From positions 1 through 29,221 of the IMG/VR virus record IMGVR_UViG_3300044701_003360: a stretch of DNA of 29,221 bases. The stretch is one strand, 5' to 3'. Below are positions 3,134 through 25,341 of this stretch, piece by piece. The DNA is from a virus. A program made the translations under genes and the position numbers. How positions within the stretch are numbered: the stretch's first letter is position 1; each line of letters begins with the position of its first letter. A model generated the notes under the pieces. The model ran no database searches. It was given only the letters and a program-made list of their open reading frames with translations, and had not been told where the DNA came from.

Positions 3134-3319
3134 ATGAGTAAGGGATCCAGACCTAGACCATATAGTGTAACGCAGAATCAATTTTCTAAAAACTGGGATA
3201 ACATATTCAAAAAAGATGTTACGACACCCGAAGAATGTGATATTCCAGTTTTAGAAAATGAAGAGATGTGGGCACAACGAGTTATTGACGAACATCAATC
3301 TAAGGAAAATAAAAAATGA
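3134..3319 (+). CDS. Small conserved phage protein, unknown function
   Basis: A 61-residue protein with the N-terminal signature SKGSRPRPYSVTQNQF followed by NWDNIFKKD. The SxGSRPRPYSV...F...WDxIF pattern is one I recall from small proteins of T4-like and other large phages, always without assigned function. The C-terminal half is acidic (ENEEMWAQRVIDEHQ). It starts one base after the previous stop and its last codons overlap the next start (ATGA), so it sits in a translationally coupled run leading to gene 44. No domain, membrane segment or signal peptide can be identified. Confidence 0.75.
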   Translation: MSKGSRPRPYSVTQNQFSKNWDNIFKKDVTTPEECDIPVLENEEMWAQRVIDEHQSKENKK

Positions 3320-3741
3320 GGATAGGTTTTACTTGTTCTTCATTTGATTTATTTCATGCCGGACATGTAATGATGCTTGAAGAAGCAAAAAAACAATGTG
3401 ATTTCTTAATAGTAGGATTACAAACTGATCCTACTATTGACCGTCCAAATGAAAAAAATGTGCCAGTCCAAGGTGTATTTGAAAGATTTATTCAACTCAA
3501 AGCCTGCAAATTTGTTGATCAAATTGTTCCTTATGCTACAGAAAAAGAACTCGTAGACATATTGCTCTGTTATCCTATAGATGTTAGAATATTAGGTGAA
3601 GAATATGAAATTAAAGAATTTACAGGAAAATACGAGTGTATCAATAAAGGTATTGAATTTTATTTTAATAAACGGGGACATTCTTTTTCCACAACTGAAC
3701 TTAGATATCGAGTAGAAAATGCAAATAAAAACACGAGATGA
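3316..3741 (+). CDS. Cytidylyltransferase-like nucleotidyltransferase (TagD type)
   Basis: A 141-residue enzyme of the HxGH nucleotidylyltransferase superfamily. GFTCSSFDLFHAGH puts the HxGH motif at residues 14-17, and HSFSTTELRYR near the C terminus matches the second signature (S-T-T-x-[IL]-x-x-R). The fold and length fit glycerol-3-phosphate cytidylyltransferase (TagD/GCT, ~130 aa), which makes CDP-glycerol from CTP. Phage homologues are usually annotated this way without biochemical proof; the substrate could be another phosphorylated polyol or sugar. It is translated within an overlapping chain of small genes ahead of gene 44: ATGA overlap upstream, 23-base overlap downstream. Confidence 0.87.
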   Translation: MRIGFTCSSFDLFHAGHVMMLEEAKKQCDFLIVGLQTDPTIDRPNEKNVPVQGVFERFIQLKACKFVDQIVPYATEKELVDILLCYPIDVRILGEEYEIKEFTGKYECINKGIEFYFNKRGHSFSTTELRYRVENANKNTR

Positions 3742-11384: not shown

Positions 11385-11885
11385 ATGATAATTGTAAAAT
11401 ATCCGAATCCAATTTTAGATGAAGTAATGCCAAAATTTGATTTTGAAAATCCAATAATAACTCCCAAAGAATTAGAAAAAGACATGCTGTCAACGATGTT
11501 TGCCAACAATGGTATGGGACTTGCGGCTCCGCAAGTTGGCGTAAGAGCTAGAATGTTTGTAATGGGTCATGCACTTATGCCAGAAAAAAGTTTTGGAGTT
11601 TTTAATCCAGAAATATTAGATGCTAGTTCAGATCTTAGAGAATTGGAAGAGGGTTGTTTGAGTTTTCCAATAATTTATGCTAAAGTTAAAAGACCATCAT
11701 GGATAATTGCAAAATATCAAAACAGTGACGGGGAAGAACAAACTAACAGATTTGAAGGTTACGACTGTGTTTGTTTTTTACATGAATTAGACCATTTAAA
11801 TGGAATAGTATACAAAGACCGGCTAAGTACCTTAAAGTGGGCTATGGCTGTTAAAAAATCTAAAAAGGTAAATCGATATGCTTGA
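11385..11885 (+). CDS. def: Peptide deformylase
   Basis: A 166-residue metalloenzyme with all three deformylase motifs: GMGLAAPQVG (43-52), EGCLS with metal-ligand Cys91, and HELDH (133-137) with ligands His133 and His137 and catalytic Glu134. It removes the formyl group from N-terminal Met of new proteins, in the cytoplasm at the ribosome exit. Phage deformylases are known from marine T4-like phages, where faster processing of phage-encoded proteins has been proposed. It is shorter at the C terminus than most bacterial forms only slightly; a full active site is present. One base separates it from dnaJ and it overlaps clpA by eight bases. Confidence 0.96.
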   Translation: MIIVKYPNPILDEVMPKFDFENPIITPKELEKDMLSTMFANNGMGLAAPQVGVRARMFVMGHALMPEKSFGVFNPEILDASSDLRELEEGCLSFPIIYAKVKRPSWIIAKYQNSDGEEQTNRFEGYDCVCFLHELDHLNGIVYKDRLSTLKWAMAVKKSKKVNRYA

Positions 11886-14151
11886 ACCAAATGAAGAGCT
11901 GCAAGAAATTTTTGAAAAATCAATTCAACTTGCTGTAGAAAATAAACATCAATATATTACGCTAGAGCATTTTTTGTATAGCATGGTATCAAATGATCCT
12001 TTCTATAATTTGTTGAAGGACTTTGGAGCCAATATTGATGAAATTAAAAATCAGCTCAAAAATTACATAGAGCATGACTTAACTACCATTGTTGACTCTA
12101 ACGGACCAGTAAGACCAAAGAAAACAAATAGTGTGGAACGTATGCTGAATAGAGCATTTACACAAACCCTATTTGCTGGTAGAACTACCATCGAACCTAT
12201 GGATTGTTTTATTAGTATTTTACATGAAAAGAAAAGTCACGCATTATATTATCTAAGATCTAACGGTGTAGACAAAGAAAAGTTCCTAGAATATATACAA
12301 AAAGAAAATATTTCTACTTTAGAGTCTGATCAAGAAACTATTCCCGAAGGTAAATTAGAAGCTCTAATCAATAATTTCTGTGTTAATTTGAACAATAAAG
12401 TAAAACAGAAACAGATTGATCCAGTTATTGGTAGAGATAGAGAATTAGAGGAAATGCAACTAGTTTTAGCTAGAAGACACAAATCCAATGTCATGTTAAT
12501 TGGCGACCCAGGAGTAGGTAAAACTGCTCTTGCAGAAGGTTTAGCTAGAAAAATTGTAGAAGGCAAAGTTCCGAAATTTATCGAAGACTACACTGTTTAT
12601 AATTTAGACATTAGTGCATTGCTCGCAGGCAGCAAGTATCGAGGTGATTTTGAAGAAAGACTAAAAACTGTTTTAACTGCTATTCAAAAGAAAAAGAAAG
12701 CGATTCTTTTTATTGATGAAGCGCACATGATGAATGGTGCAGGTGCAAGTAGTGGTCAAAGTCAAGACATGGCTAATATGTTGAAGCCTGCATTAAGTAA
12801 GGGCGGACTAAAAGTTATTGCTAGTACTACTTGGGAAGAATTCCGTAAGCACTTTGAAAAGGATCGTGCGCTAATGCGTCGATTCCAACGTGTTACTGTT
12901 GGCGAGCCTGATGAAGAAACTTCTATTAAAATCCTAAAAGGATTAAAAAAGTATTATGAAAAGCATCATGGTTGTACTATTACCAATCAAGCTATTATTG
13001 ATGCTGTAAAATATAGTATCAAATATATGAGTGATAAAAAATTACCTGACAAAGCTATTGATATTATAGACTGTGCATGTGCTAGGTTTAAAGTTAGAGA
13101 CGAAGAAAATGGCATCGTAGATCATGACGAAGTTGTTTTTGAAGTTTCTAAAATGACAAACTTACCTTTAGAGCAAGTGGCGGCAAAAGAAACTAAAGTA
13201 TTGAAAAATTTAGAAAAAGAAATTAAAAATGAAGTTTTTGGTCAAGACTCGGCACTAGATCTTTTATTAGATAAAATTTATATTGCTCAGGCAGGTTTAA
13301 AAAGTATTAACAAACCAATTGGAAGTTTCCTTTTCGTAGGTCCCACTGGATGTGGTAAGACTGAAACTGCAAAAGTGTTAAGTCAAAAAATGGGCATACA
13401 TCTTACTAGGTTTGATATGAGTGAATTCCAAGAAAAGCATGCCGTAGCAAAATTTATTGGAGCTCCTCCGGGGTATGTTGGATTTGACGATAATGCTGGA
13501 CAATTGATTACACATCTTCAAGAAAATCCGAACTGTATTTTGCTATTAGATGAAATTGAAAAGGCGCATCCAGACGTTAGTAATGTTCTTCTACAGTTAA
13601 TGGACAATGGGTTCGTTACTGGTAGCAACGGCAAAAAGGCTGATGGTAGAAATGCTATTATCATTATGACATCTAATTTAGGTGCTGCTGATGCTGAAAG
13701 AAAGAAGATAGGATTCGGCAATAATGAAAAAACAGAAGAAATGCAAAGTGCTGTTACTAAATTCTTTGCTCCAGAATTCCGTAATAGACTAGATGGTGTG
13801 ATTTCATTTAATAAACTAGAATACAACACTATGGTAAAAATTGTAGACAAGTTTATAACTGATCTTAACTCATTAATTTCAGATAAAAATGTATTTGTAC
13901 AACTTTCGTCATCTGCTAAAGATCATTTAGTAGAAAAAGGCTTCAATGCAGCCATGGGTGCTAGACCATTGTTAAGAGTTATTGATGATAAAATTAAAAA
14001 GCCATTGAGTAAAGAAATCTTATTTGGCAACTTGATTAATGGCGGTGTTGTAAAGATAGATTTTAGTAATAATGAATTAGAATTTAATTATTTGGACCCA
14101 TTGCCTACAAGTAATAGCCAAAATTTGTTGGAGGCTCCTGTTGAAGATTGA
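11878..14151 (+). CDS. clpA: ClpA-type AAA+ unfoldase
   Basis: At 757 residues it equals E. coli ClpA (758) and lacks the middle coiled coil of ClpB. The N domain (two repeats, residues 1-145) fits the ClpS/substrate-binding domain. First AAA+ module: Walker A GDPGVGKT at 209-216, Walker B D280-E281. Second: Walker A GPTGCGKT at 488-495, Walker B D558-E559, then TPEFRNR-like FAPEFRNRLD and GARPLLRVI. AERKKIGFGNN puts I611-G612-F613 where E. coli ClpA has its ClpP-docking IGL loop. It should therefore deliver substrates to host ClpP, degrading or sparing chosen proteins. Phage ClpP is not in this window. It overlaps def, and a TTG-started gene overlaps its end. Confidence 0.94.
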   Translation: MLEPNEELQEIFEKSIQLAVENKHQYITLEHFLYSMVSNDPFYNLLKDFGANIDEIKNQLKNYIEHDLTTIVDSNGPVRPKKTNSVERMLNRAFTQTLFAGRTTIEPMDCFISILHEKKSHALYYLRSNGVDKEKFLEYIQKENISTLESDQETIPEGKLEALINNFCVNLNNKVKQKQIDPVIGRDRELEEMQLVLARRHKSNVMLIGDPGVGKTALAEGLARKIVEGKVPKFIEDYTVYNLDISALLAGSKYRGDFEERLKTVLTAIQKKKKAILFIDEAHMMNGAGASSGQSQDMANMLKPALSKGGLKVIASTTWEEFRKHFEKDRALMRRFQRVTVGEPDEETSIKILKGLKKYYEKHHGCTITNQAIIDAVKYSIKYMSDKKLPDKAIDIIDCACARFKVRDEENGIVDHDEVVFEVSKMTNLPLEQVAAKETKVLKNLEKEIKNEVFGQDSALDLLLDKIYIAQAGLKSINKPIGSFLFVGPTGCGKTETAKVLSQKMGIHLTRFDMSEFQEKHAVAKFIGAPPGYVGFDDNAGQLITHLQENPNCILLLDEIEKAHPDVSNVLLQLMDNGFVTGSNGKKADGRNAIIIMTSNLGAADAERKKIGFGNNEKTEEMQSAVTKFFAPEFRNRLDGVISFNKLEYNTMVKIVDKFITDLNSLISDKNVFVQLSSSAKDHLVEKGFNAAMGARPLLRVIDDKIKKPLSKEILFGNLINGGVVKIDFSNNELEFNYLDPLPTSNSQNLLEAPVED

Positions 14152-15337: not shown

Positions 15338-15658
15338 ATGAAACTGGTTGAATTTTTTAGTGTAAGCACCAAAGTAGAAGAAGAAATACTTGTCGACGAA
15401 GAAATGCAGAAAGAAGTTATGGCATTTATATTAGACAATGATCAAATTTACAAACAAGACCTTTTTCCTATCATTGAAAAAATGCGTAAGGGCAAAGACG
15501 TAACCAAAGATCTTTCTGAAATGGTTAAAAAATCCTGCTTAGAATTCTATAAAGAAAAAGAATTTAAGAAAGATCCAAACAAACTATTCCCTAAAAAAAT
15601 GAGGGAAAATATCATCAATAATTTGCACAAGATTGCTTCCGAGAATTATATAAAATGA
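15338..15658 (+). CDS. Small protein with capsid-targeting-like N terminus
   Basis: A 106-residue protein started at the ATG at 15338. The N terminus MKLVEFFSVSTKVEEE is the first of twelve related starts in this region (M-K-x-x-E-F-F, then acidic residues). The remaining sequence is charged and helical (MQKEVMAFILDNDQIYKQDLF, then VTKDLSEMVKKSCLEFYKEKEF) with a lysine-rich C terminus that could bind DNA. No family is recognised. It overlaps the metallopeptidase gene by four bases (ATGA). By analogy with T4 internal proteins it may be a head protein, but this rests on the N-terminal motif and context. Confidence 0.75.
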   Translation: MKLVEFFSVSTKVEEEILVDEEMQKEVMAFILDNDQIYKQDLFPIIEKMRKGKDVTKDLSEMVKKSCLEFYKEKEFKKDPNKLFPKKMRENIINNLHKIASENYIK

Positions 15659-16047
15659 AAGTAAAAGATTTATTATTAGAGTATTCCCTAGGAGACCGTC
15701 GAGAAATATTAAATGATTTCTTAAAGTATTGTGCTGATGTATTAGAAATAAATGAACTTCCAGAAATACAATTAGTGACTGATAAAAGCTATTCAGCGAA
15801 ATATAAATCATTTGGCGGTTATCAACCAGGTGAAAATAAAATAATTTTAGCTATCGAAGGTCGGCATATTGCTGACATACTCAGAACTCTAGCACACGAA
15901 CTAACCCACTACAAACAAGATTTGGAAGGTGACTTGGACGATCCTTACGCAGGGGAAACTGGTAGTGATCAAGAAAACGAAGCAAATAGTGTAGCAGGGA
16001 TATTAATGAGAGACTTTGGCAGAGCCAACCCTAATATTTACGAATAA
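15655..16047 (+). CDS. Putative zinc metallopeptidase with capsid-targeting-like N terminus
   Basis: A 130-residue protein starting MKVKDLLLEYSLGDRRE. HELTH at residues 81-85 is an HExxH zinc site in the helix IADILRTLAHELTHYKQDL; SDQENEAN (E107 or E109), about 22-25 residues later, offers the third ligand as in gluzincin/IrrE-like minimal peptidases. The length is that of a minimal catalytic domain. The N-terminal motif resembles a T4 capsid-targeting sequence, so the peptidase might be packaged and act on a host protein straight after injection, or act during head maturation. Substrate unknown. Coupled to both neighbours (ATGA overlap before, two bases after). Confidence 0.8.
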   Translation: MKVKDLLLEYSLGDRREILNDFLKYCADVLEINELPEIQLVTDKSYSAKYKSFGGYQPGENKIILAIEGRHIADILRTLAHELTHYKQDLEGDLDDPYAGETGSDQENEANSVAGILMRDFGRANPNIYE

Positions 16048-16049
16048 TT

Positions 16050-17063
16050 ATGAGAATAAGAGAATTATTAGAAGGTGGCTGGGACACCAAAGTAACACAA
16101 AGCACTGTGATAAAACCACAGATAGTAAAAGCTGCCTTATCTATAGCACAAAAATTTGCTGTTGATTTTAATTCTTTTTTAAAAGAAAAAGATATTCCCA
16201 GTATACGTATTGGCGCTCCTACAGGCAGTAGTGCTTATCATGACGTAGACCCAGAAGATAAAATTTATGGTGATGTAGATTTACAAATAGTAGTTCCTGC
16301 ATTAGAACAAAACGCGGGACTAACTATGGCACAGGTTCAGACTTTTTGGCATAAGTTAGAAGATGAATTTGTAAAAACTATCAAACCAAACTATATACAT
16401 CCAGAAAGTGAACCAGGACATCCAATTTTCTCTATAGGCAATGATCAATATGTGCAAGTAGACTTAATGCCACATCCAGTTCCATTAGAACAATGGGGAA
16501 GATATAGAGTCACTCCTGAAAGAGGACTAAAAGGTTTACTTTATGGAAATATGTTCAGTGTTTTGGGTGAACTACTACTGATGAGTATACAACACAGTGG
16601 AGCTCAAATTAAAGTTAGAGATGGGCAAAGACTCCCATACACTCCTACTAGAAAAGATTATGAACTACAAACAGTTACTTCTAATATCGAAACGTTTGTT
16701 TATGATATATTCATGCACGAAGCAAAATTGTTAGGAGTCACCAAACCATATATTGATCCATTGTTAAAAAAGCATCCTGGAGTTAACACACAAGATATTA
16801 AAATCAGTAATTTAGTTAATGCTGTTAAAGGCATAGCAAGTAGTTTTGAACTAAATGATATGTATGGTAAAGGTGCTTTGTCAAATTATGCTAATTCAAA
16901 TGACTTTATAAACAAATTTTTAGAAATATATGAAGCAAAAGCCATGAAAGATATCACTGCTAGTAAACGCGATAAAGCAGAAACTCCTGAAGCTAAGGCT
17001 CGTGCAGAAGATGATAAAAAGAAAGTTGCTCAAGGACTTGAGTTTGTTAAAGGACTATTCTAA
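16050..17063 (+). CDS. Pol beta-type nucleotidyltransferase with capsid-targeting-like N terminus
   Basis: A 337-residue protein beginning MRIRELLEGGW. IGAPTGSSAY then YGDVDLQIVV give the nucleotidyltransferase signature: GSS at 59-61, D75-x-D77, and a third acidic residue in YVQVDLMPHP. This places it in the DNA polymerase beta/CCA/2-5A synthetase-type superfamily, which transfers NMP to protein, RNA or small molecules. The helical C-terminal half ends in a charged segment. LLE followed by GG is a fit to the T4 gp21 protease consensus [LI]-x-E/[GAS]. Whether it modifies a host tRNA, protein or something else is unknown. A second DxD nucleotidyltransferase is encoded at 18161. Confidence 0.8.
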   Translation: MRIRELLEGGWDTKVTQSTVIKPQIVKAALSIAQKFAVDFNSFLKEKDIPSIRIGAPTGSSAYHDVDPEDKIYGDVDLQIVVPALEQNAGLTMAQVQTFWHKLEDEFVKTIKPNYIHPESEPGHPIFSIGNDQYVQVDLMPHPVPLEQWGRYRVTPERGLKGLLYGNMFSVLGELLLMSIQHSGAQIKVRDGQRLPYTPTRKDYELQTVTSNIETFVYDIFMHEAKLLGVTKPYIDPLLKKHPGVNTQDIKISNLVNAVKGIASSFELNDMYGKGALSNYANSNDFINKFLEIYEAKAMKDITASKRDKAETPEAKARAEDDKKKVAQGLEFVKGLF

Positions 17064-17803
17064 TGCGAGCAAGAGAATTTATGGAGCAAGCTCCTTTTAA
17101 AAATAATAAAGAAGACGAGTTAAGAAGAGCATTACAACGAGACATTGACATACCAGTGATGCCTACTGAAAAAGACTGGAGAACTGATCCAGAAGCTCGC
17201 AGAAAAAAAGAAAAAGAACAGGCATTAGAACTTCCACCTGTTAGTCCAGAGGATTTGATTGGTACTGGTATATTCAAAGCACCAGCTCTTGCCGCAGTTA
17301 ACACACTGTCAAAAACTGCTCCTAAAAAATTATCCACTAAAATTGGTGATATTGCATATGATTTAAAAAATAAACCCAATCCTTTCAATCCAATGACAAT
17401 AAAAGATGTTGGAACTGAAAAAGCAACTATACAATATCATGCTGATAATGCCTTTAGAAAAAAATATGGTATGGAGCCTCCAACATACGACATAGATAAA
17501 GATCTAAAAAGATTTGGTGGTACAGATGCATATCGCAAAGCCACCAACGATTATGCTACAATATCTAATGATTTTCAAAACAGAGGTTATAAGATTGGTG
17601 TCAGGTTTCCAGAAATTGGTGCCAATGTAGACAGCACTGATTTATTAACACCTAGAACTAGAATACCTAGTCCCAGCGCAAAAGAAAAATTTCAGGACAT
17701 TGTAGATAAAGAAGCGTTTAGAATTGCGAACCCTTTAAATATGTTAGATTTTAGCACAAAGGCTGTGGCTAATAGAAATAGGAATAACGATGAAAATAAG
17801 TGA
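17063..17803 (+). CDS. Unknown protein with capsid-targeting-like N terminus
   Basis: A 246-residue protein beginning MRAREFMEQAPFKNN. It is rich in Lys, Asp, Pro and Asn, with mostly disordered-looking segments (RRKKEKEQALELPPVSPED), one short apolar stretch (IFKAPALAAVNTLSK) and a C-terminal part with GVRFPEIGANVDSTDLL. No known domain recognised. It shares one base with the preceding stop (TAATG) and overlaps the next gene by 14 bases, so it belongs to a tight unit between the two nucleotidyltransferase genes and may be a partner or regulator of one of them; that is inferred from position only. Confidence 0.75.
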   Translation: MRAREFMEQAPFKNNKEDELRRALQRDIDIPVMPTEKDWRTDPEARRKKEKEQALELPPVSPEDLIGTGIFKAPALAAVNTLSKTAPKKLSTKIGDIAYDLKNKPNPFNPMTIKDVGTEKATIQYHADNAFRKKYGMEPPTYDIDKDLKRFGGTDAYRKATNDYATISNDFQNRGYKIGVRFPEIGANVDSTDLLTPRTRIPSPSAKEKFQDIVDKEAFRIANPLNMLDFSTKAVANRNRNNDENK

Positions 17804-18164
17804 ACTATTAGAATCTAAAGATGGCAAGGTCACCAAAAGACAACGAGAGTCTACTCGTGGTTTGCACATTTATTCAGATGGTGAAAAATGGAGCGGTGAT
17901 TATACTCAATATAGAGTTATGATGGCTGCTGCATGTACTGATGGCGAATCAGTACCAGACATGGATGCTAAAAGTTGGATAGGGAAATATAAAACAGCAC
18001 ATCCTTATTCCGAGGAAGATCAAAAAAAATTAAAAATGGCTTACAAGGCTGCAGGAGCCAGTTATAAAGATTTAAATCATGGTAATTTGGATAGTGATGA
18101 ACTAAAAAGTATTAACACGCATAGTCCTGTTGCTAAAAAGAAAAAGAATAGGTATGGCATATGA
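17790..18164 (+). CDS. Unknown small basic protein with capsid-targeting-like N terminus
   Basis: A 124-residue protein beginning MKISELLESKDGKVTKRQRE; LLE followed by S fits the gp21 cleavage pattern. After it come GLHIYSDGEKWSGDYTQYRVMMAAAC, SWIGKYKTAHPYSEEDQKK and a basic C terminus KKKKNRYGI. The tyrosine/tryptophan-rich middle looks like a folded domain; the ends look unstructured and positively charged, consistent with DNA contact inside a capsid. No family recognised. It overlaps both neighbours (14 and 4 bases) and lies directly before a nucleotidyltransferase gene. Confidence 0.75.
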   Translation: MKISELLESKDGKVTKRQRESTRGLHIYSDGEKWSGDYTQYRVMMAAACTDGESVPDMDAKSWIGKYKTAHPYSEEDQKKLKMAYKAAGASYKDLNHGNLDSDELKSINTHSPVAKKKKNRYGI

Positions 18165-18988
18165 AAATAAGAGAATTATTAGAAAGCGGTAAACGTCTAG
18201 CAGGACAAGGGATAGAAGTTTCGAGAGTCAATAAAGATGTATTTCTAAAAGCTAAATCTGTTTTAAATCCTATCTTAAAAAAAGCCGGACTTAAAGCAGG
18301 TTGGACTGCTGGCGGTGCAGGAAGTTTTGATCCTGAACATCCTTATGGTGGCGGTGGTAGAGAAGATAGCGGAGACATAGATATTATGATTGACCCTATG
18401 CAACTTTTAAAGCAGTTTCCACCAGACATCGAATCATATAACGCTGCGAGTAAAAAACCTTTAGGTCCAAAAGCCATGGCAACTACTCTAGCAGATCCTA
18501 ATAAAAAAGCTAGACTAGAACTGAGTGCTAGTAAATGGGCTTTGGCATCATATATGACTCAGAGTGGCTTTCCCACTGATCCTGGCACACTTACAGTAGA
18601 ATATTCAGATAATGGTAGAAGTTATTCTATTGATTTAATTGTTAGACCTGAAAGTTCTTGGGAACTACATTCACATGATTTTACTAGAGATCCTGGAATG
18701 AGAGGTGGACAACTATTTACAGATGTATATCCTACATTAGTCAAATTAGCCAGCAAATCTACTTTCACAGATCCTAAAACTGGCGAGGAAAAAGGTAGTT
18801 TACAATACAGTCCAGATAGGGGACTCGTAGATAGAGAAACTGACGAAGTAGTTGCTATAAACAAGAACGATATAGCTAAAATATTGCTAGGTCCAACTGC
18901 TACTGCTAAAGATATGTCAAGTATTTCGGGAATTAAAGACGCTTTAGCCAAAGATCCAGCAAAAATGCGTCAAGTCTTTCCAAATTAA
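18161..18988 (+). CDS. Second nucleotidyltransferase with capsid-targeting-like N terminus
   Basis: A 275-residue protein beginning MKIRELLESGKRLAG; its first ~25 nucleotides are nearly identical to those of the gene at 16050. WTAGGAGSFDPEHPYGGGG leads into EDSGDIDIMIDP with D72-x-D74, and YSIDLIVRP supplies a third acidic residue, a Pol beta-type nucleotidyltransferase pattern. The long Gly-rich loop between GS and the DxD pair is unusual. No obvious similarity to the other nucleotidyltransferase beyond motif and N terminus, so the two may have different targets. A late-promoter-like element follows its stop. Confidence 0.76.
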   Translation: MKIRELLESGKRLAGQGIEVSRVNKDVFLKAKSVLNPILKKAGLKAGWTAGGAGSFDPEHPYGGGGREDSGDIDIMIDPMQLLKQFPPDIESYNAASKKPLGPKAMATTLADPNKKARLELSASKWALASYMTQSGFPTDPGTLTVEYSDNGRSYSIDLIVRPESSWELHSHDFTRDPGMRGGQLFTDVYPTLVKLASKSTFTDPKTGEEKGSLQYSPDRGLVDRETDEVVAINKNDIAKILLGPTATAKDMSSISGIKDALAKDPAKMRQVFPN

Positions 18989-18993
18989 AATAC

Positions 18994-19001
18994 AATAAAT
19001 A
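18994..19001 (+). promoter_or_regulatory. Late-promoter candidate, leaderless
   Basis: AATAAATA followed by TAGCT and the ATG at 19007. Seven of eight bases match T4 TATAAATA. The expected start, about six bases on, coincides with the ATG, and no Shine-Dalgarno is present. Confidence 0.55.
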
Positions 19002-19006
19002 TAGCT

Positions 19007-20974
19007 ATGAAATTATTAGAATTCTTCAACTCCAGCAAAAAAGCTATAATGGAAGGCATTGACCATCCAGAAGACCTTATTATCTCTAATGGCAGTGCTG
19101 GCGCAGAAAGAGTTCTAAAAGACTTAATAAATTTACAGAAAGACCCCAGCACTGTTAGTGTTAAATGGGACGGATTTCCTGCTGTAGTATTTGGCAGAGA
19201 TTCAAAAGGTAATCTAGTGTTTGTAGACAAACACATGTATGACAAAATTTCTAAAGGTAAAATGAATTTTACTAGTATTAGATCATATGATGAAGAACGT
19301 GATGCTAATAGAACTAGTCTTTGGGAACAAGAAAGTGTATTAAGACCTGCATTAGATAAAGTAATTCCTAATGTTCGTGATCAATACTGGATGGGAGATC
19401 TAATGTGGACTGGAACTCCTAAAACAGATAATGGATATTTTGTTTTTAAACCAAATACTGTGGAGTATAGAGTAAAAATAGATGATACTCCTGGCAGAGG
19501 TAATACTTTAAGTGACAAAATTGCTAGAAGTGTTGGCGGTATTGCTGTACATACTTTTATACCTGGATTAGGTCAATCAGACCAACCATTAGTAGGTCTT
19601 AAAGGATTGAATGACGATGGTGGAATAACTTTCATGGTAGGAGAAATGAAAGATAAACCTAGGGTTGCAGTTAATACAGATTTAGCCAATAAAACTCAAC
19701 AAATTATTAGTCAACACAAATCATCAGTAGATAAATTTATTCAAGATCTAACAGAAATGAAATCTAAAAGTGTAATAACTGCCATGGGCCCATTTATTAC
19801 ACGTATGTTAGAAGAAGATGACATATCAGGAAACATTGTTCCGAGATTTTTAGAATTTTTAAAAGAAAGACTAACTGACTCAGCGGCGCAAAAAATGCTG
19901 GGAACTAATAAAGATGGTTGGTTGTATCAAGAAGATGGTGGCGGACCTGGACTATTAGGAATATGGTCAATGTGGGCAGCTATCACAGAACTTAAAACTA
20001 ATATTAAACAACAGATAGATGCTCAACAACAAGGTAGCGAAATAATTGCTATCACTGACGGCGTTAATGCACACGAAGGATATGTATTTGGTTCTGGAAA
20101 AGATAAACTAAAATTAATTGATAGATTAGGATTTAGTAGAGCAAATTTTGCTAAACACAAAGTCAGCGATGAAGAAGTTTCTCAAAAGAAACAAATGCCT
20201 TTAGCTGTGTTTTGTTTCGGTAGAATGAATCCACCTACATTAGGTCATGGATTAGTAATAAACAAGACTTTAGAGTCAGGTGGTGAAAACGCATTTATCT
20301 TTTTAAGTAACAGTGTTGGAACTGATGATCCGCTAGACCCATCTACTAAAGCAAAGTTTATAGCAGAAATATATCCAAATGCTGCAGGAAGAATAGTGAC
20401 TGATTTTGTTCAAGGTCCAATTTACGCTGCTAATTGGCTATATAGCAAAGGTTTTAGGAATATGGCATTTGTTGCTGGTAGTGATAGATTAGGCAAAGAA
20501 AAAGGTAGTATTGAAAAATTACTAAATGGTTGGAACAGCGGTCCTATTCGTAGCACTGATCCATCTGGCGCAAGAGATTTCGTTCACATGAGCTACATTA
20601 GTGCTGGAGATAGAGATCCAGAAAGCACAGGTATACAAGGATTTAGTGGCACTAAAGCTAGAGAGGCTGCGATTTCTGGCAATGAACAAAAGTTTCAAGA
20701 ATATACAGGTGTCGACTCTAATATTACTGTAAATGGGCTTACACTTTATCAAGCTGTTAGAAAAGCTATGAACTTAGATAAAGAAGAAGCAACTCCAGCT
20801 ACCAATGTAGTAGCAAAACAACCAGTCGCTAAAAAACAAATAGCAAAGAAGGTTCCAGGACAATCTCCCGAAACAGACAAACAAGTAGATAAATTAAATG
20901 CTTCTCTTAGAGAACAGCTTTCTGATTTACGTATAATTGTAGAAAATTTAAAACAGATTAGGAAATTAAAATGA
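19007..20974 (+). CDS. Fusion of KxDG ligase-like and TxGH adenylyltransferase-like domains
   Basis: A 655-residue protein beginning MKLLEFFNSSKKAIMEGI, another variant of the shared N terminus (IME followed by G fits gp21 cleavage). SVKWDGFPAVVFGRD gives K53-x-D-G56, motif I of ATP-dependent ligases and capping enzymes; NAHEGYVFG (E357) and KLKLID (K367/K369) fit motifs IV and V. The second domain has FCFGRMNPPTLGHG (T411-L-G-H414) and GFSGTKAREA (546-555), matching the NMN adenylyltransferase-type superfamily signatures (H/TxGH and ISGTxxR). The tail is Lys/Gln-rich with a coiled coil. Two AMP-transferring active sites in one chain suggest RNA or NAD metabolism; the actual substrate is unknown. 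Confidence 0.78.
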   Translation: MKLLEFFNSSKKAIMEGIDHPEDLIISNGSAGAERVLKDLINLQKDPSTVSVKWDGFPAVVFGRDSKGNLVFVDKHMYDKISKGKMNFTSIRSYDEERDANRTSLWEQESVLRPALDKVIPNVRDQYWMGDLMWTGTPKTDNGYFVFKPNTVEYRVKIDDTPGRGNTLSDKIARSVGGIAVHTFIPGLGQSDQPLVGLKGLNDDGGITFMVGEMKDKPRVAVNTDLANKTQQIISQHKSSVDKFIQDLTEMKSKSVITAMGPFITRMLEEDDISGNIVPRFLEFLKERLTDSAAQKMLGTNKDGWLYQEDGGGPGLLGIWSMWAAITELKTNIKQQIDAQQQGSEIIAITDGVNAHEGYVFGSGKDKLKLIDRLGFSRANFAKHKVSDEEVSQKKQMPLAVFCFGRMNPPTLGHGLVINKTLESGGENAFIFLSNSVGTDDPLDPSTKAKFIAEIYPNAAGRIVTDFVQGPIYAANWLYSKGFRNMAFVAGSDRLGKEKGSIEKLLNGWNSGPIRSTDPSGARDFVHMSYISAGDRDPESTGIQGFSGTKAREAAISGNEQKFQEYTGVDSNITVNGLTLYQAVRKAMNLDKEEATPATNVVAKQPVAKKQIAKKVPGQSPETDKQVDKLNASLREQLSDLRIIVENLKQIRKLK

Positions 20975-21495
20975 AAATCACTGAAATATTATTAGAAAAT
21001 AAAAAAGGCGTAAAAGCTCCAGTGAAACCTCGCAACTTTGTTGCCAAAAATCAACAGACTAGTGGCTCAGGTGCTCATCGTGATAAAAAGAAAGAGCAAA
21101 AGCAAGGTTACGAAAAACATAAAAGTAAAAGCGTAGCGGAAGGTTTCAATAACGAAATAGATATGGAACTACATCGTATTGCGCAATCTGAAGATGAGGA
21201 AATGTTAGTTGATGCTATGCACGGACTGTTAGGCACTGGTGTATCAGATACATTAGAAGATATGATTAATGAGTTAGCAGATGAATTAGCTGCTAAGGGA
21301 ATGACAGAACTATTAAATGATGAAGATAAAATGATAGAACTTTTAATGGATAAGGTTACAAAAGAATACGGCAATCCTGACATAGCGGAAGGTTTAAAAG
21401 ATCCAAAAGACAATCCTTGTTGGAAAGGATATAAGCCTGTAGGAACCAAAAAGAAAAATGGCAAAACTGTACCAAATTGTGTGCCTAAGGAATAA
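20971..21495 (+). CDS. Unknown protein with capsid-targeting-like N terminus and Cys-pair tail
   Basis: A 174-residue protein beginning MKITEILLENKKGVKAP. A very basic segment follows (KPRNFVAKNQQTSGSGAHRDKKKEQKQ), then an acidic helical middle with repeated ELADELAAKG-type heptads, then a C-terminal module NPCWKGYKPVG...VPNCVPKE with two cysteines about 18 apart. VAE followed by G (near residue 57) and IAE followed by G (near 138) fit the T4 gp21 cleavage consensus, so maturation at several points is possible. It overlaps the upstream gene by four bases (ATGA). The pattern suggests a head-internal or scaffold-type protein; no enzymatic motif is visible. Confidence 0.76.
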   Translation: MKITEILLENKKGVKAPVKPRNFVAKNQQTSGSGAHRDKKKEQKQGYEKHKSKSVAEGFNNEIDMELHRIAQSEDEEMLVDAMHGLLGTGVSDTLEDMINELADELAAKGMTELLNDEDKMIELLMDKVTKEYGNPDIAEGLKDPKDNPCWKGYKPVGTKKKNGKTVPNCVPKE

Positions 21496-21497
21496 AG

Positions 21498-21932
21498 ATG
21501 GAAAAATTACAACAAGCTCTAAAAATTGCATTTGCTAGTGAATTTAGTTTTTATCTAAAAGCACATTATTTTCACTGGAATGTTGAAGGCGAAAATTTTC
21601 AACAATATCATGAATTGTTTGGAAAAATTTATGAGGAAGTATATGCTAGTATTGATGATTTTGCAGAAAATATACGTAAAATAAATGCTTATACACCTGG
21701 TAGTTTAATCGGATTCAATATGCTGAGTGCTATCGAAGACGAAACTGTTATCCCGTCTGCAAAAGAAATGGTCATTGAACTATTACAGGACAGTGAGAAA
21801 ATGTCAGAGATTTTTAAATTCACTTTTAGACTTTCAGAAGAATATAACGAATATGGCCTAAGTGATTTTTTAGCCAATAGACAAGATGCACATAATAAAC
21901 ACAGCTGGATGCTAAGAGCAACATTAAAATGA
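21498..21932 (+). CDS. Dps-like ferritin
   Basis: A 144-residue four-helix protein of the Dps family. LKAHYFHWNVEG contains H26 of the HWN motif, QYHELF gives H38, and IDDFAENIR gives D53 and E57; these correspond to the inter-subunit ferroxidase ligands of Dps (E. coli H51, H63, D78, E82). The ending FLANRQDAHNKHSWMLRATLK is a typical Dps last helix. Dps forms 12-mers that oxidise iron and protect DNA. It lacks the shared N-terminal motif of its neighbours but lies in the middle of the same cassette, two bases after a motif-bearing gene. It may protect phage or host DNA during infection. Confidence 0.88.
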   Translation: MEKLQQALKIAFASEFSFYLKAHYFHWNVEGENFQQYHELFGKIYEEVYASIDDFAENIRKINAYTPGSLIGFNMLSAIEDETVIPSAKEMVIELLQDSEKMSEIFKFTFRLSEEYNEYGLSDFLANRQDAHNKHSWMLRATLK

Positions 21933-22219
21933 AACAATACAGAGTAACTAGTCAAGATATTAATCAATCCAGTGACGACGACTGTTACTTGGATCCAAAA
22001 GATCCTATACAAGAATTAAAAATACTTTCTGGTATGGGAGGAATAAACGGACAGGCAAGGTTACAAGAGTATAAACTAAGTCAGCGAGATATTAACATAA
22101 GTCATACAGCAAATAATAATGCAGAATTAATGAAACAACACGATATTAAACCTGGTACTCCAGAATGGTTTAAACTTTGGTTTAGCAAACCATATCTAAC
22201 AGGTGAGAAAAGGATTTAA
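21929..22219 (+). CDS. Small protein, unknown function
   Basis: A 96-residue protein beginning MKQYRVTSQDINQSSDDDCY, with ILSGMGGINGQARLQEYKLSQRDI in the middle and KPGTPEWFKLWFSKPYLTGEK at the end. No capsid-targeting-like start. The C-terminal KPGTPEWFKLWFSKP segment looks like a short linear module I have seen at the ends of other marine phage proteins, but cannot name. It overlaps the Dps-like gene by four bases (ATGA), so the two are co-translated. Mostly polar and likely flexible. Confidence 0.72.
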   Translation: MKQYRVTSQDINQSSDDDCYLDPKDPIQELKILSGMGGINGQARLQEYKLSQRDINISHTANNNAELMKQHDIKPGTPEWFKLWFSKPYLTGEKRI

Positions 22220-22220
22220 C

Positions 22221-22661
22221 ATGAGAGCTACTGAATTCATCACAGAAAGTTGGAGTGAAAAATATAAGAGCAGCATTAATTGCGACAGTCCTAAAGGATT
22301 TAGTCAACGTGCTCACTGTCAAGGTAGAAAAAAGAATGAAAGTTTAGAAGAAACATATGACGGTGATGAATTCTACGAAGCATACGGAGAACTTTGGTAC
22401 AATGAAGATCATCAATTAGATGAGGCGGAATATCAGGGTCGTAGTGTACCTTTAGGTAAACCTATGCGTGGTGATGTTAAAAAATTCAAAGTTTATGTTA
22501 AAAATTCAAAAGGAAACATAGTTAAGGTTAACTTTGGTGATCCTAATATGAAGATTAAAAAATCAAATCCTGCAAGACGCAGGAGTTTTAGAGCAAGACA
22601 TAATTGTGATAATCCTGGTCCCAGAGATAAAGCACGTTATTGGTCATGTAGGAAATGGTAA
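22221..22661 (+). CDS. Cys-pair protein with capsid-targeting-like N terminus
   Basis: A 146-residue basic protein beginning MRATEFITESWSEKYKSS; ITE followed by S is a possible gp21 cut. The ATG at 22221 has a good ribosome site (AAAGGA); the upstream GTG at 22203 is rejected. Two similar Cys-pair modules are visible: NCDSPKGFSQRAHCQGRKK (C-x11-C) at the start and HNCDNPGPRDKARYWSCRKW (C-x13-C) at the end, each flanked by Arg/Lys/His. They might be small zinc- or nucleic-acid-binding units. The middle is acidic then beta-like (KKFKVYVKNSKGNIVKVNFG). Function unknown. Confidence 0.76.
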   Translation: MRATEFITESWSEKYKSSINCDSPKGFSQRAHCQGRKKNESLEETYDGDEFYEAYGELWYNEDHQLDEAEYQGRSVPLGKPMRGDVKKFKVYVKNSKGNIVKVNFGDPNMKIKKSNPARRRSFRARHNCDNPGPRDKARYWSCRKW

Positions 22662-22662
22662 T

Positions 22663-23436
22663 ATGAAGATTACTGAGTTACTTGCTGAAAATAAAGACAC
22701 TAAAGCTGACACTGTTCAAAAAAATAGTGACGAACTTGCTACAATCCAAAGTAATGTTCACGGAACTGAAAGTGGGTATGGGAAAGCAAAAACTGACAAA
22801 CCTAATTATGCAGGTGCTATAGGCCCAATGCAAATTCTTCCATCAACATTTGGTTGGATGCAAAAAACTGGTATAATACCAAAAGATTATGATATACAAA
22901 ATCCAGAACAAAACAAGGCTGCAGGTGATGCACTATTAGCTCATTATTATAAAAAATATGATGGCGATCCTTCCAAAGTATATGCAGCATATTATGGAGG
23001 CCCTGGCGCAGTTAATAAAGACGGCACTATTAATACACACTGGCGAGACAGAAAAAATCCTAAAGCACCTACAGTAGGAGAATATATTGCAATAGCTATG
23101 GCAAAGAGTGGAACTTCACAACCTAGAAGCAGAGACGGAAAAACTGATGTTTCACTACCGAAATCTGTCGCAGTTGCTTCTGCTCCAACAGCAAAATCTG
23201 TTTTAGATACTGATAACGTGTCAAGAACTATTTCTGATATAGGTTCTTCTATTGGAAATTTCTATGACAGAGTCAGATCCGATTTAACAAGAAACATTAG
23301 TTCTACAGATAATATAGAGAATAATGAAATAGTATTGCTCATAGGTGGCAAGAAAAGAAAATTTAAAAACAAGAAAGAGGCGGAGATGGCAATAAAATTA
23401 GCAATGCAATCAGGAGAGGAGATTGTTAATGTCTAA
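22663..23436 (+). CDS. Lytic transglycosylase (SLT-type) with capsid-targeting-like N terminus
   Basis: A 257-residue protein beginning MKITELLAENKDTKA at the ATG at 22663. The catalytic Glu is E36 in HGTESGYGKAK; GAIGPMQILPSTFGWM and KVYAAYYGGPGAV are the other SLT (goose-lysozyme-like) blocks. It would cleave peptidoglycan between MurNAc and GlcNAc. There is no signal peptide, and a separate GH19 endolysin exists, so its use in ordinary lysis is unlikely. The N-terminal motif suggests that it travels in the head and helps DNA cross the wall, as virion transglycosylases of other phages do. The C-terminal part carries a basic KKRKFKNKKEAEMAI segment. Confidence 0.85.
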   Translation: MKITELLAENKDTKADTVQKNSDELATIQSNVHGTESGYGKAKTDKPNYAGAIGPMQILPSTFGWMQKTGIIPKDYDIQNPEQNKAAGDALLAHYYKKYDGDPSKVYAAYYGGPGAVNKDGTINTHWRDRKNPKAPTVGEYIAIAMAKSGTSQPRSRDGKTDVSLPKSVAVASAPTAKSVLDTDNVSRTISDIGSSIGNFYDRVRSDLTRNISSTDNIENNEIVLLIGGKKRKFKNKKEAEMAIKLAMQSGEEIVNV

Positions 23437-24202
23437 ACCAGAAGTTTATTTAGATATGGATGGAGTTATCGCAGACTTCTTTGCCGAGTATGCTAAACTT
23501 GCAGGAGTCACTTCCGGTGATTACAGATCTATACCTCCAGCCAAAGTAGATCCTACTTTAGATAAAATGATAGGTACTGATTTCTTTTTTAGATTACCCA
23601 AATTTCCCAGTGCTGATGCATTAGTAGATATGATTGTAAAAACTTTTGGTCATTATCATATATGCTCAAGTCCATTAAGGGGAGACCATGCTGGGAGTGA
23701 GAAATGGAAAAAGGCATGGATTAAAAAATATTTAAAAATACAGCCTAAAGAAATAATAATTACACCCAATAAAGCCAAATATGCAGTACAAGCAGACGGT
23801 ACTCCAAATATTTTAATTGATGATAGAGGTAGTAACATCAGTGCATGGGAAGCTAAAGGTGGTGTTGGTATTAAGTATCAAGCAGATGAGGATGGTCTCG
23901 ACGTTGTTCTAAAAGGATTTAAGCGAGCTATAGAAATAGTTAAAGGTCAACAAAAACACGAACCACAAAAACTACAAAGTTTAGACAGAGGGAAAATGAT
24001 CGCTGTACAACAAAGTGGTGATAAAGACATTGAAGAAAATTTTGCTGATGGAAAAAATCCTGGACGCAAAGGTCTGGCTAAACGTATGGGTGTTAATACT
24101 AAAGCCAGTGTTAGCAGTCTTCGTAAGACTGCCAAAAATTCATCAGGTGAAAAGCAACGCATGGCACATTGGTTGGCCAATATGAAAGGCGGAAAAAAAT
24201 AA
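23429..24202 (+). CDS. HAD-type 5'-nucleotidase with C-terminal GRKG module
   Basis: A 257-residue protein from the ATG at 23429 (GGAG ahead); it overlaps the transglycosylase gene by eight bases. VYLDMDGVIADF gives the HAD nucleophile D9 and acid D11, CSSPLRGD is motif II, and KAKYAVQ...NILIDDRGSN gives motifs III/IV (DD), the 5'(3')-deoxyribonucleotidase arrangement. It would dephosphorylate nucleoside monophosphates. After residue ~200 follows a separate basic module, NPGRKGLAKRMGVNTKASVSSLRK ending KQRMAHWLANMK, which I recall as a stand-alone or appended domain in other marine phage proteins. No capsid-targeting-like start. Confidence 0.82.
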   Translation: MSKPEVYLDMDGVIADFFAEYAKLAGVTSGDYRSIPPAKVDPTLDKMIGTDFFFRLPKFPSADALVDMIVKTFGHYHICSSPLRGDHAGSEKWKKAWIKKYLKIQPKEIIITPNKAKYAVQADGTPNILIDDRGSNISAWEAKGGVGIKYQADEDGLDVVLKGFKRAIEIVKGQQKHEPQKLQSLDRGKMIAVQQSGDKDIEENFADGKNPGRKGLAKRMGVNTKASVSSLRKTAKNSSGEKQRMAHWLANMKGGKK

Positions 24203-24570
24203 TGAAAATATTTGAATTACTTAATGAAAATGATGTTGTAGATCCAGACAGAGATTCTGTAGAAAAAAGATTAGATGATTTGGTAAAAAGAGAAAAAGAG
24301 ATTGATGCTTTATTAAAAGACATAACCCCAGGTTTCAATCCAATATCTCCAGATGAAGGTGACGATCAATTGGTTGGATATACTACTCCAAGAAAATCTC
24401 GTGAAATATTGAAAAATCCTGAGTTGTATCAATATGGAACGACTATAGAGAAAGAGAAAGATTTTCAACGTCCGGTGTTTAACAAAAATACTAAACCACC
24501 AGATAATTGGAAGAAAAAAGGAATGCCATTACCTAATGATGAATATCCGACAAAAAATATAGACATCTAA
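24202..24570 (+). CDS. Small protein with capsid-targeting-like N terminus
   Basis: A 122-residue protein from the ATG at 24202, sharing a base with the preceding stop (TAATG). It begins MKIFELLNENDVVDPDRD, then a charged helix (KRLDDLVKREKEIDALLKDI) and a Pro-rich, polar C-terminal half (GFNPISPDEGDDQ, TTPRKSREILKNPELYQYG, KPPDNWKKKGMPLPNDEYP). No catalytic motif or known domain. Highly charged and probably extended. A late-type promoter candidate lies at its stop codon. Confidence 0.74.
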   Translation: MKIFELLNENDVVDPDRDSVEKRLDDLVKREKEIDALLKDITPGFNPISPDEGDDQLVGYTTPRKSREILKNPELYQYGTTIEKEKDFQRPVFNKNTKPPDNWKKKGMPLPNDEYPTKNIDI

Positions 24571-24577
24571 TTAAATA
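24570..24577 (+). promoter_or_regulatory. Late-promoter candidate
   Basis: ATTAAATA followed by ACTTGATAAAGAG in the 27-base gap before the ATG at 24598; six of eight matches to the T4 late element. Weaker than its relatives because AAC replaces the usual TA after the core. Confidence 0.35.
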
Positions 24578-24597
24578 ACTTGATAAAGAGATATAAA

Positions 24598-25341
24598 ATG
24601 AAAATTAATGAACTTTTAGAAAACATTTTAAATGAAGATGAAATTCGTGATGCAGAGTTGCTTAAAATGGGTGACACTTCACTGACCGCAGGCGATGTTG
24701 CAGATGCACTGAGTATTGAACCGTCGACTGCTTTAAAATACGGAAAAGATATTGTTAATTTTTTAAGTTCAGAAATTAGACCTGGTTACACTACTGGCGA
24801 AGCTGCATTAGATGTTGCTACAGTTATTCCGTTACTACGTGCTTCCAAATGGGTTATTGGTCCAATTTTAGCTAGAAAAGAATTACAAGCAACTACCAAG
24901 AAACAAGTTGGTAAAGAGATTCAAAAAGGCGCAACAAGACAGACTGGTAAAGAAATAGTCACACGCAATGTAAGTAAAGGGTCTGCATTTAATACGCCAT
25001 CAGACAAAAGTTCATCTGATACTGCTCAACCTAAAAAACGAAGATATTCAATTGGTGATATGATTAATGTCAATTATCAAGGAATGACTATTAAAGGAGT
25101 GGTTAAAAATGTAATTCCAGGGGGATATTCAATAGGATTACCAGATGGGAAAACTGTTAGTATTCCGGAACCAATAATGGAATCTCCTACACAAGGATCA
25201 ACATCTGCAGCCGACGTCACTGTTGGGGCAGTTTATCCTAATAAAAAAGTAAAAAATTCTAAAAATAAAGATGGCACCGTTAAAAACGCATTAGATATGG
25301 ATGCCAATTTACTTACTGGCGGCAGTTTAGTAAAACGATAA
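24598..25341 (+). CDS. Unknown protein with capsid-targeting-like N terminus
   Basis: A 247-residue protein from the ATG at 24598, beginning MKINELLENILNEDEIRD. Early segments LTAGDVADALSIEPSTALKYG suggest a helical, possibly helix-turn-helix-like stretch; TGEAALDVATVIPLLRASKWVIGPIL is moderately apolar. A basic linker (KKQVGKEIQKGATRQTGKE) follows, then a small beta-barrel-like domain KRRYSIGDMINVNYQGMTIKG with GGYSIGLPDGKTVSI, similar in outline to SH3/KOW-like folds. No enzyme motif. Last of the motif-bearing genes; its stop codon lies in a late-promoter element. Confidence 0.75.
   Translation: MKINELLENILNEDEIRDAELLKMGDTSLTAGDVADALSIEPSTALKYGKDIVNFLSSEIRPGYTTGEAALDVATVIPLLRASKWVIGPILARKELQATTKKQVGKEIQKGATRQTGKEIVTRNVSKGSAFNTPSDKSSSDTAQPKKRRYSIGDMINVNYQGMTIKGVVKNVIPGGYSIGLPDGKTVSIPEPIMESPTQGSTSAADVTVGAVYPNKKVKNSKNKDGTVKNALDMDANLLTGGSLVKR

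Follow-up and report, generated by a model that had tools for sequence, protein, structure and literature searches.

Genes and Features of the Locus

The window, by which we mean the whole 29,221-nucleotide stretch of viral DNA analyzed here, is a fragment from a T4-like aquatic phage, and the phage collection holds no near relative of it. At 19007..20974 on the plus strand lies a genuine open reading frame (ORF) for a 655-residue fusion protein, in which a capsid-targeting-like start is followed by a predicted ligase-like DUF6267 domain, a HIGH-type nucleotidyltransferase domain, and, in the full-length model, a C-terminal helix (residues 621-654, 20867..20968, +). Directly upstream on the same strand is a Pol-beta-type nucleotidyltransferase (NTase)-like gene with a capsid-targeting-sequence (CTS)-like start and conserved G-x-x-G, S70-G-D72-x-D74, and D158 (18161..18988, +). 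A second Pol-beta-like NTase candidate, with the pattern GSS...YGDVDLQ...VQVDLM and likewise a CTS-like start, is found at 16050..17063 (+). Scanning the window for tRNA genes and Rfam families gave no matches. The fusion protein recurs with 100% identity on L001, a 46.6-kb viral contig. The window and L001 are 99% identical, with ~295 and ~676 bases of L001 missing from the window at 21133-21143 and 24035-24082 (overlaps of 11 and 48 bases). Both gaps sit within or beside CTS-type genes; ORF 20971 encodes 174 residues in the window and 276 in L001, and ORF 23423 encodes 259 and 500, respectively.

A preliminary description of this DNA had read the fusion protein as a chain with a ligase-like K53-x-D-G56 site, E357, KLKLID, an adenylyltransferase-like T411-L-G-H414, and SGTKAREA, and all of these motifs are at the residues named. 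K53-W-D-G56, E357-G-Y-V360, K367-L-K-L-I-D372, T411-L-G-H414, and S547-G-T-K-A-R552 are each present exactly once. A KxDG motif is expected 0.38 times by chance in a protein of such size and thus carries little weight alone; the evidence lies in conservation.

A Predicted Ligase-like Fold in DUF6267

The DUF6267 domain (residues 18-385, 19058..20161, +; Pfam PF19782, E 5e-35) has a divergent covalent-nucleotidyltransferase-like fold in the model, and motifs I, III, IV, and V of that superfamily occur in order along it. Motif I (K53-W-D-G56, 19163..19174, +) would supply the adenylated lysine. A motif III-like G130-D131-L132 (19394..19402, +), absent from the preliminary list, carries an Asp where ligases have a Glu. 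Motif IV is E357-G-Y-V360 (20075..20086, +). The reading of KLKLID as motif V stood as to place but not as to residue: K369 rather than K367 is the invariant lysine, and it is followed by R373, so that the motif V-like element K369-L-I-D-R373 (20111..20125, +) offers a single conserved Lys plus Arg373, not K-x-K. The long spacing between motifs I and IV, from which insertions had been anticipated, is accounted for by a mostly helical insertion of ~130 residues (~214-343, 19646..20035, +) between motifs IIIa and IV in the predicted secondary structure of both models.

Conservation was assessed across 237 unique aligned sequences. E22, D23, K53-W-D-G56, Y154, K330, E357, G358, and K369 show no variation in any sequence that covers them, and R373, D131, H20, and H182 show next to none. 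Many homologues were retrieved by patterns containing KWDG or KL.DR, so the counts at those residues (KWDG in 236/236 unique homologues having a residue there, K369 in 233/233, R373 in 231/232) are inflated, whereas those at other residues, such as E357/G358 (233/233) and D131 (235/237), are unaffected; E22, D23, D131, Y154, and E357 are in none of the patterns behind the biased set. The window-like set and most of two cyanophage-type sets were retrieved by different patterns, with the exceptions in the cyanophage-type sets that one pattern contains KWD and another ends in KW. Even very divergent DUF6267 members (~20-25% identity) retain the Lys, Asp, Glu, and Lys predicted to be catalytic, and dN/dS values of 0.01-0.17 between relatives indicate that both the DUF6267 and HIGH domains are under purifying selection.

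Because a full-length fold search listed the C-terminal domain only, the DUF6267 domain was folded alone (pLDDT 90.6, pTM 0.85). The likeness to RNA ligases proposed in the preliminary description was recovered: the top 50 rows of the VIA-align comparison were RNA or DNA ligases (50/50), the best being Naegleria Rnl (Z 8.4, 184 residues, rmsd 4.0). A Foldseek search placed Trl1 tRNA ligase and TbREL1 in its first two rows, a weak match (E 0.075); its E-values were >0.05, and a Z of 8.4 is only moderate. CorA rows in the Foldseek list were helix matches and were set aside. In the structure-match listing, viral RNA ligases come next after the DUF6267 family itself. The Naegleria Rnl alignment ends with model residue 383 opposite chain residue 339, and a gapless reading back from this pair puts K369 at most one residue from catalytic K326 and E357 at most one from E312, both of which are among the mutated positions in the structure entries listed.

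Sequence comparison found no such relationship. Neither phmmer nor a profile search of PDB sequences with DUF6267 gave a match, hhalign against the T4 Rnl2 family returned a probability of 0.5% with EGYV alone aligned, and a Pfam scan of 70 DUF6267 members at E up to 5 listed 25 families without a ligase among them. The ligase assignment therefore draws on the motif set, the sequence in which the motifs occur, and the modeled fold, with sequence homology undetected; its main strength is that all listed structural matches fall in a single superfamily and that DUF6267 has invariant residues where this superfamily has its motifs. In predicted fold, and in the succession of motifs I, III, IV, and V, the domain resembles Naegleria Rnl, TbREL1, Trl1, and T4 Rnl2, but the window protein differs from these RNA ligases in having no detectable sequence similarity (Rnl2 compared by hhalign), in the helical insertion between IIIa and IV, in the Asp of motif III, and in its HIGH fusion; neither an OB-fold nor another known accessory domain of ligases is evident in it.

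On this evidence, DUF6267 very probably has a ligase-like fold that is active. A ligase-fold relative that is catalytically dead, or that serves in structure or RNA binding, would agree with the weak ligase similarity and the missing second lysine of motif V, but we regard it as improbable given the retention of the predicted catalytic residues at such divergence and the low dN/dS. That KxDG and TxGH arose by chance in a protein outside both superfamilies, an idea to which the 0.38 chance expectation lends something, was already disfavored by motif invariance and fold and is extremely unlikely.

The HIGH-Type Domain

Residues 397-590 (20195..20776, +) adopt a PPAT/NMNAT fold in the full-length model (pLDDT 88.5). 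PPAT gave the VIA match at Z 13.2 (rmsd 2.9 over 150 residues) and NMNAT gave a Z of ~12; overall, PPAT scores structurally as high as NMNAT or higher. The C-terminal half also matches PHROGs 3041 and 395 (cytidyltransferase), and both the (H/T)xGH and S-[ST]-x-x-R motifs of the HIGH superfamily are present, as T411-L-G-H414 (20237..20248, +) and S547-G-T-K-A-R552 (20645..20662, +). G413/H414 are conserved in 149/149 sequences and R552 in 141/141, and G405 and R406 are invariant where present. The fold and both motifs are held in common with PPAT (CoaD) and NMNAT (NadM, NadD), from which the phage family is set apart by its own signature, FGRxNPPTxGH and SxGxRDPD. The earlier assignment of this TxGH domain to the NMN-adenylyltransferase superfamily is thus matched clearly by the fold, and the proposed union of two nucleotidyltransferase folds in one chain is borne out by the models of both halves. 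Elsewhere in the window, 3316-3741 encodes another cytidylyltransferase-like protein, with HAGH (PF01467, E 2e-12).

Relatives and Neighboring NTases

A tblastn search with the DUF6267 half found 251 phage records, mostly cyanophages, and one with the C-terminal half found 497; four viral-contig scans and the phage records together gave 281 loci with a DUF6267 gene. Of the DUF6267 matches in cellular genomes, nearly all are on MAG contigs and are plausibly phage. The two domains are adjacent genes, T4-GC 71 (DUF6267) and T4-GC 190 (cytidyltransferase), in P-HM2 and S-MbCM7, lie one or two genes apart in pelagiphage HTVC008M and methylophage Melnitz, and are fused in S-PM2 (S-PM2d138). These cyanophage proteins have homologous domains in the same order and are annotated as hypothetical or cytitidyltransferase, but the DUF6267 half of P-HM2, S-MbCM7, S-SZBM1, and S-PM2 is without the CTS-like start of the window protein. 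Since the domain families are already known as sequence clusters, DUF6267 is a known Pfam family, and S-PM2 has the fused form, the fusion does not represent a novel type. DUF6267 is named nowhere in the literature searched; what appears new here is its ligase-like identity, the capsid-tagged form, and the recurrent tie to Pol-beta-like NTases.

That tie was surveyed at 42 DUF6267 loci with identity below 60%. A Pol-beta-like NTase, assigned by motif only, is immediately or closely upstream of DUF6267 in 19 and in the same chain in 4 (L028, L053, L103, and L110), making 23 of the 41 evaluable loci. Among the NTases, the catalytic pattern of G-x-x-G, S-G-D-x-D, and D158 hardly varies. Of the 37 loci evaluable for the HIGH domain, 11 have it either fused or encoded downstream, and many DUF6267 genes have none nearby. 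NTase, DUF6267, and HIGH domain are all present in the window lineage and share a single chain in L028, and L110 also has a weak C-terminal match to the HIGH domain. A homologue of the 16050-17063 product touches DUF6267 in L036. HTVC008M, Melnitz, and S-MbCM7, unlike the window, have no recognized NTase gene beside DUF6267.

Assignment of the neighboring NTases as RlaP was considered and rejected, as neither the 18161-18988 nor the 16050-17063 product matches PF10127 at E up to 1; a PF10127 search in three relatives likewise found none. A polynucleotide kinase as regular partner was also discarded. A P-loop kinase gene adjoins DUF6267 only in HTVC008M (L039 7706-8365, a Zeta-toxin/AAA_33-type kinase between DUF6267 and the cytidyltransferase) and L113, and no end-healing kinase or phosphatase is regularly adjacent in the loci surveyed. 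A T4 Rnl1-type ligase is encoded as well in one relative, G001.

A Capsid-Targeting-like Start

In T4, internal proteins reach the head by means of a 10-residue targeting peptide, and cleavage by gp21 follows L/I-X-E (PMC9026906). The fusion protein begins with a similar N-terminus, MKLLEFFNSSKKAIME (residues 1-16, 19007..19054, +), in which I14-M-E16 before G17 fits the gp21 protease rule; DUF6267 starts at residue 18, and residues 1-15 are disordered in the full-length model. The start M-[KRN]-x-x-[EDQ]-hydrophobic-hydrophobic is common to 11 of the 43 window ORFs (12 counting one internal start), all in a cassette between 15.3 and 25.3 kb (15338..25341, +), as compared to a mean of 0.10 and a maximum of 2 in shuffles and 0/196 internal methionines; the pattern was composed after inspecting the sequences, so these figures describe clustering and are not a blind test. 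The capsid-targeting-like start suspected in the preliminary description is thus real. An L/I-x-E just ahead of the first conserved histidine is frequent in related DUF6267 proteins. The window itself is a fragment, and three large relatives encode an S77 prohead protease (PF03420, gp21-type). The tag resembles that of T4 internal proteins and Alt, a short targeting peptide at the N-terminus with L/I-x-E at its end, but the T4 cargo is an ADP-ribosyltransferase and small basic proteins, and here it would consist of nucleotidyltransferases.

In virion proteomes, homologues of the C-terminal half have been detected, but the DUF6267 half has not. The cytidyltransferase of S-SZBM1 (362 residues, start MRFRQFIIEA) was detected in virions together with the product of the next gene; the split DUF6267 product of that phage is untagged and absent from the same proteome list (PMC9146016). 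Cytidyltransferase homologues were also detected in virions of S-CREM2 (PMC10665884) and S-SCSM1 (PMC9602691), with carry-over in CsCl preparations considered possible by the authors of the cyanophage proteomes. S-SCSM1_90, a virion protein beside the cytidyltransferase of that phage, was tested as a DUF6267 candidate and is not one. We judge it likely that the 655-residue protein is packaged in the phage head. The capsid tag would explain the partner-domain homologues in virions and points to an enzyme cassette thrown into the cell ahead of any phage gene expression.

Other tagged products include one from 22663-23436, a lytic transglycosylase (SLT, E 1.5e-16) with the start MKITELLAE and a candidate ejected wall enzyme. 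In L318 (1666-4131), the S-CRM01 kinase gene, annotated as serine/threonine kinase PKN8, has the CTS-like start MISFDQFLSEKK, and a virion kinase has been reported for S-CRM01 (PMC10665884).

Proposed Function and Alternatives

Taken together, sequence and models lead us to propose, with somewhat better than even confidence, a two-enzyme protein that travels in the head and reaches the cell together with the DNA as part of an ejected adenylyltransferase set. The prohead protease would remove residues 1-16, and in the infected cell K53 would take AMP from ATP and pass it to a 5′-phosphate, most likely of a broken RNA end. The neighboring Pol-beta-like NTase, with the same tag and sometimes in the same chain, may restore lost nucleotides, and the C-terminal domain could make a dinucleotide-type product such as NAD. 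The widespread "unknown" phage family DUF6267 thus probably acts as an enzyme delivered with DNA, and its reading as a ligase-like adenylyltransferase provides testable chemistry for a family very common in marine and freshwater phages.

The pathway served is less certain. RNA end repair or modification right after entry is the reading that we favor, tentatively, by analogy: in phage RNA repair, Pol-beta NTases (RlaP) accompany RNA ligases and are predicted to put back missing nucleotides ahead of sealing (PMC7824862), and a ligase-like enzyme beside a Pol-beta NTase is this same arrangement. The window differs from RlaP systems in that its NTases have no PF10127 match and its ligase-like domain is neither Rnl1 nor Rnl2. 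Because the NTases are unmatched to RlaP and a kinase or phosphatase is not a regular neighbor, RNA repair is a role that we infer. RNA is a reasonable candidate for the substrate of the ligase-like domain, at a little under even chances, and the narrower idea of tRNA repair against host nucleases is more doubtful.

A role in NAD metabolism, in which an ejected NMN adenylyltransferase raises or restores NAD early and DUF6267 serves as regulator or NAD-using partner, was proposed by cyanophage proteome authors for the virion homologues (PMC10665884, PMC9602691) and would suit the NMNAT match. We consider it unlikely, as PPAT equals or beats NMNAT in structure scores, neither Nampt nor another NAD gene was recognized beside the fusion gene, and many DUF6267 genes stand without a HIGH domain nearby. 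Slightly less probable still is nucleotidylation of proteins or small molecules for host takeover by the ejected NTases and ligase-like domain, a counterpart of T4 Alt ADP-ribosylation. The cassette does resemble a takeover effector set, including as it does a zinc-peptidase-like HELTH ORF, and a Lys-AMP intermediate could serve protein targets, but the KxDG enzymes described so far act on the ends of nucleic acids (reviewed in works cited in PMC7824862), and no target or docking domain was recognized. We give little credence to a capsid-delivered kit in which lysine-AMP ligase-like, HIGH-type, and Pol-beta-type chemistries would work on one pathway at infection, for example as a self-recycling ligase whose ligase-like half would use NAD as AMP donor while the NMNAT-like half would turn the released NMN into NAD; we know of no phage system that operates in such a manner.

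The HELTH ORF (15655-16047, 130 residues) has a CTS-like start and, with its zincin motif, is a candidate ejected metallopeptidase. The same phage encodes a ClpA/ClpB-like AAA protein (11878-14151) and a Dps/ferritin-like protein (21498-21932).
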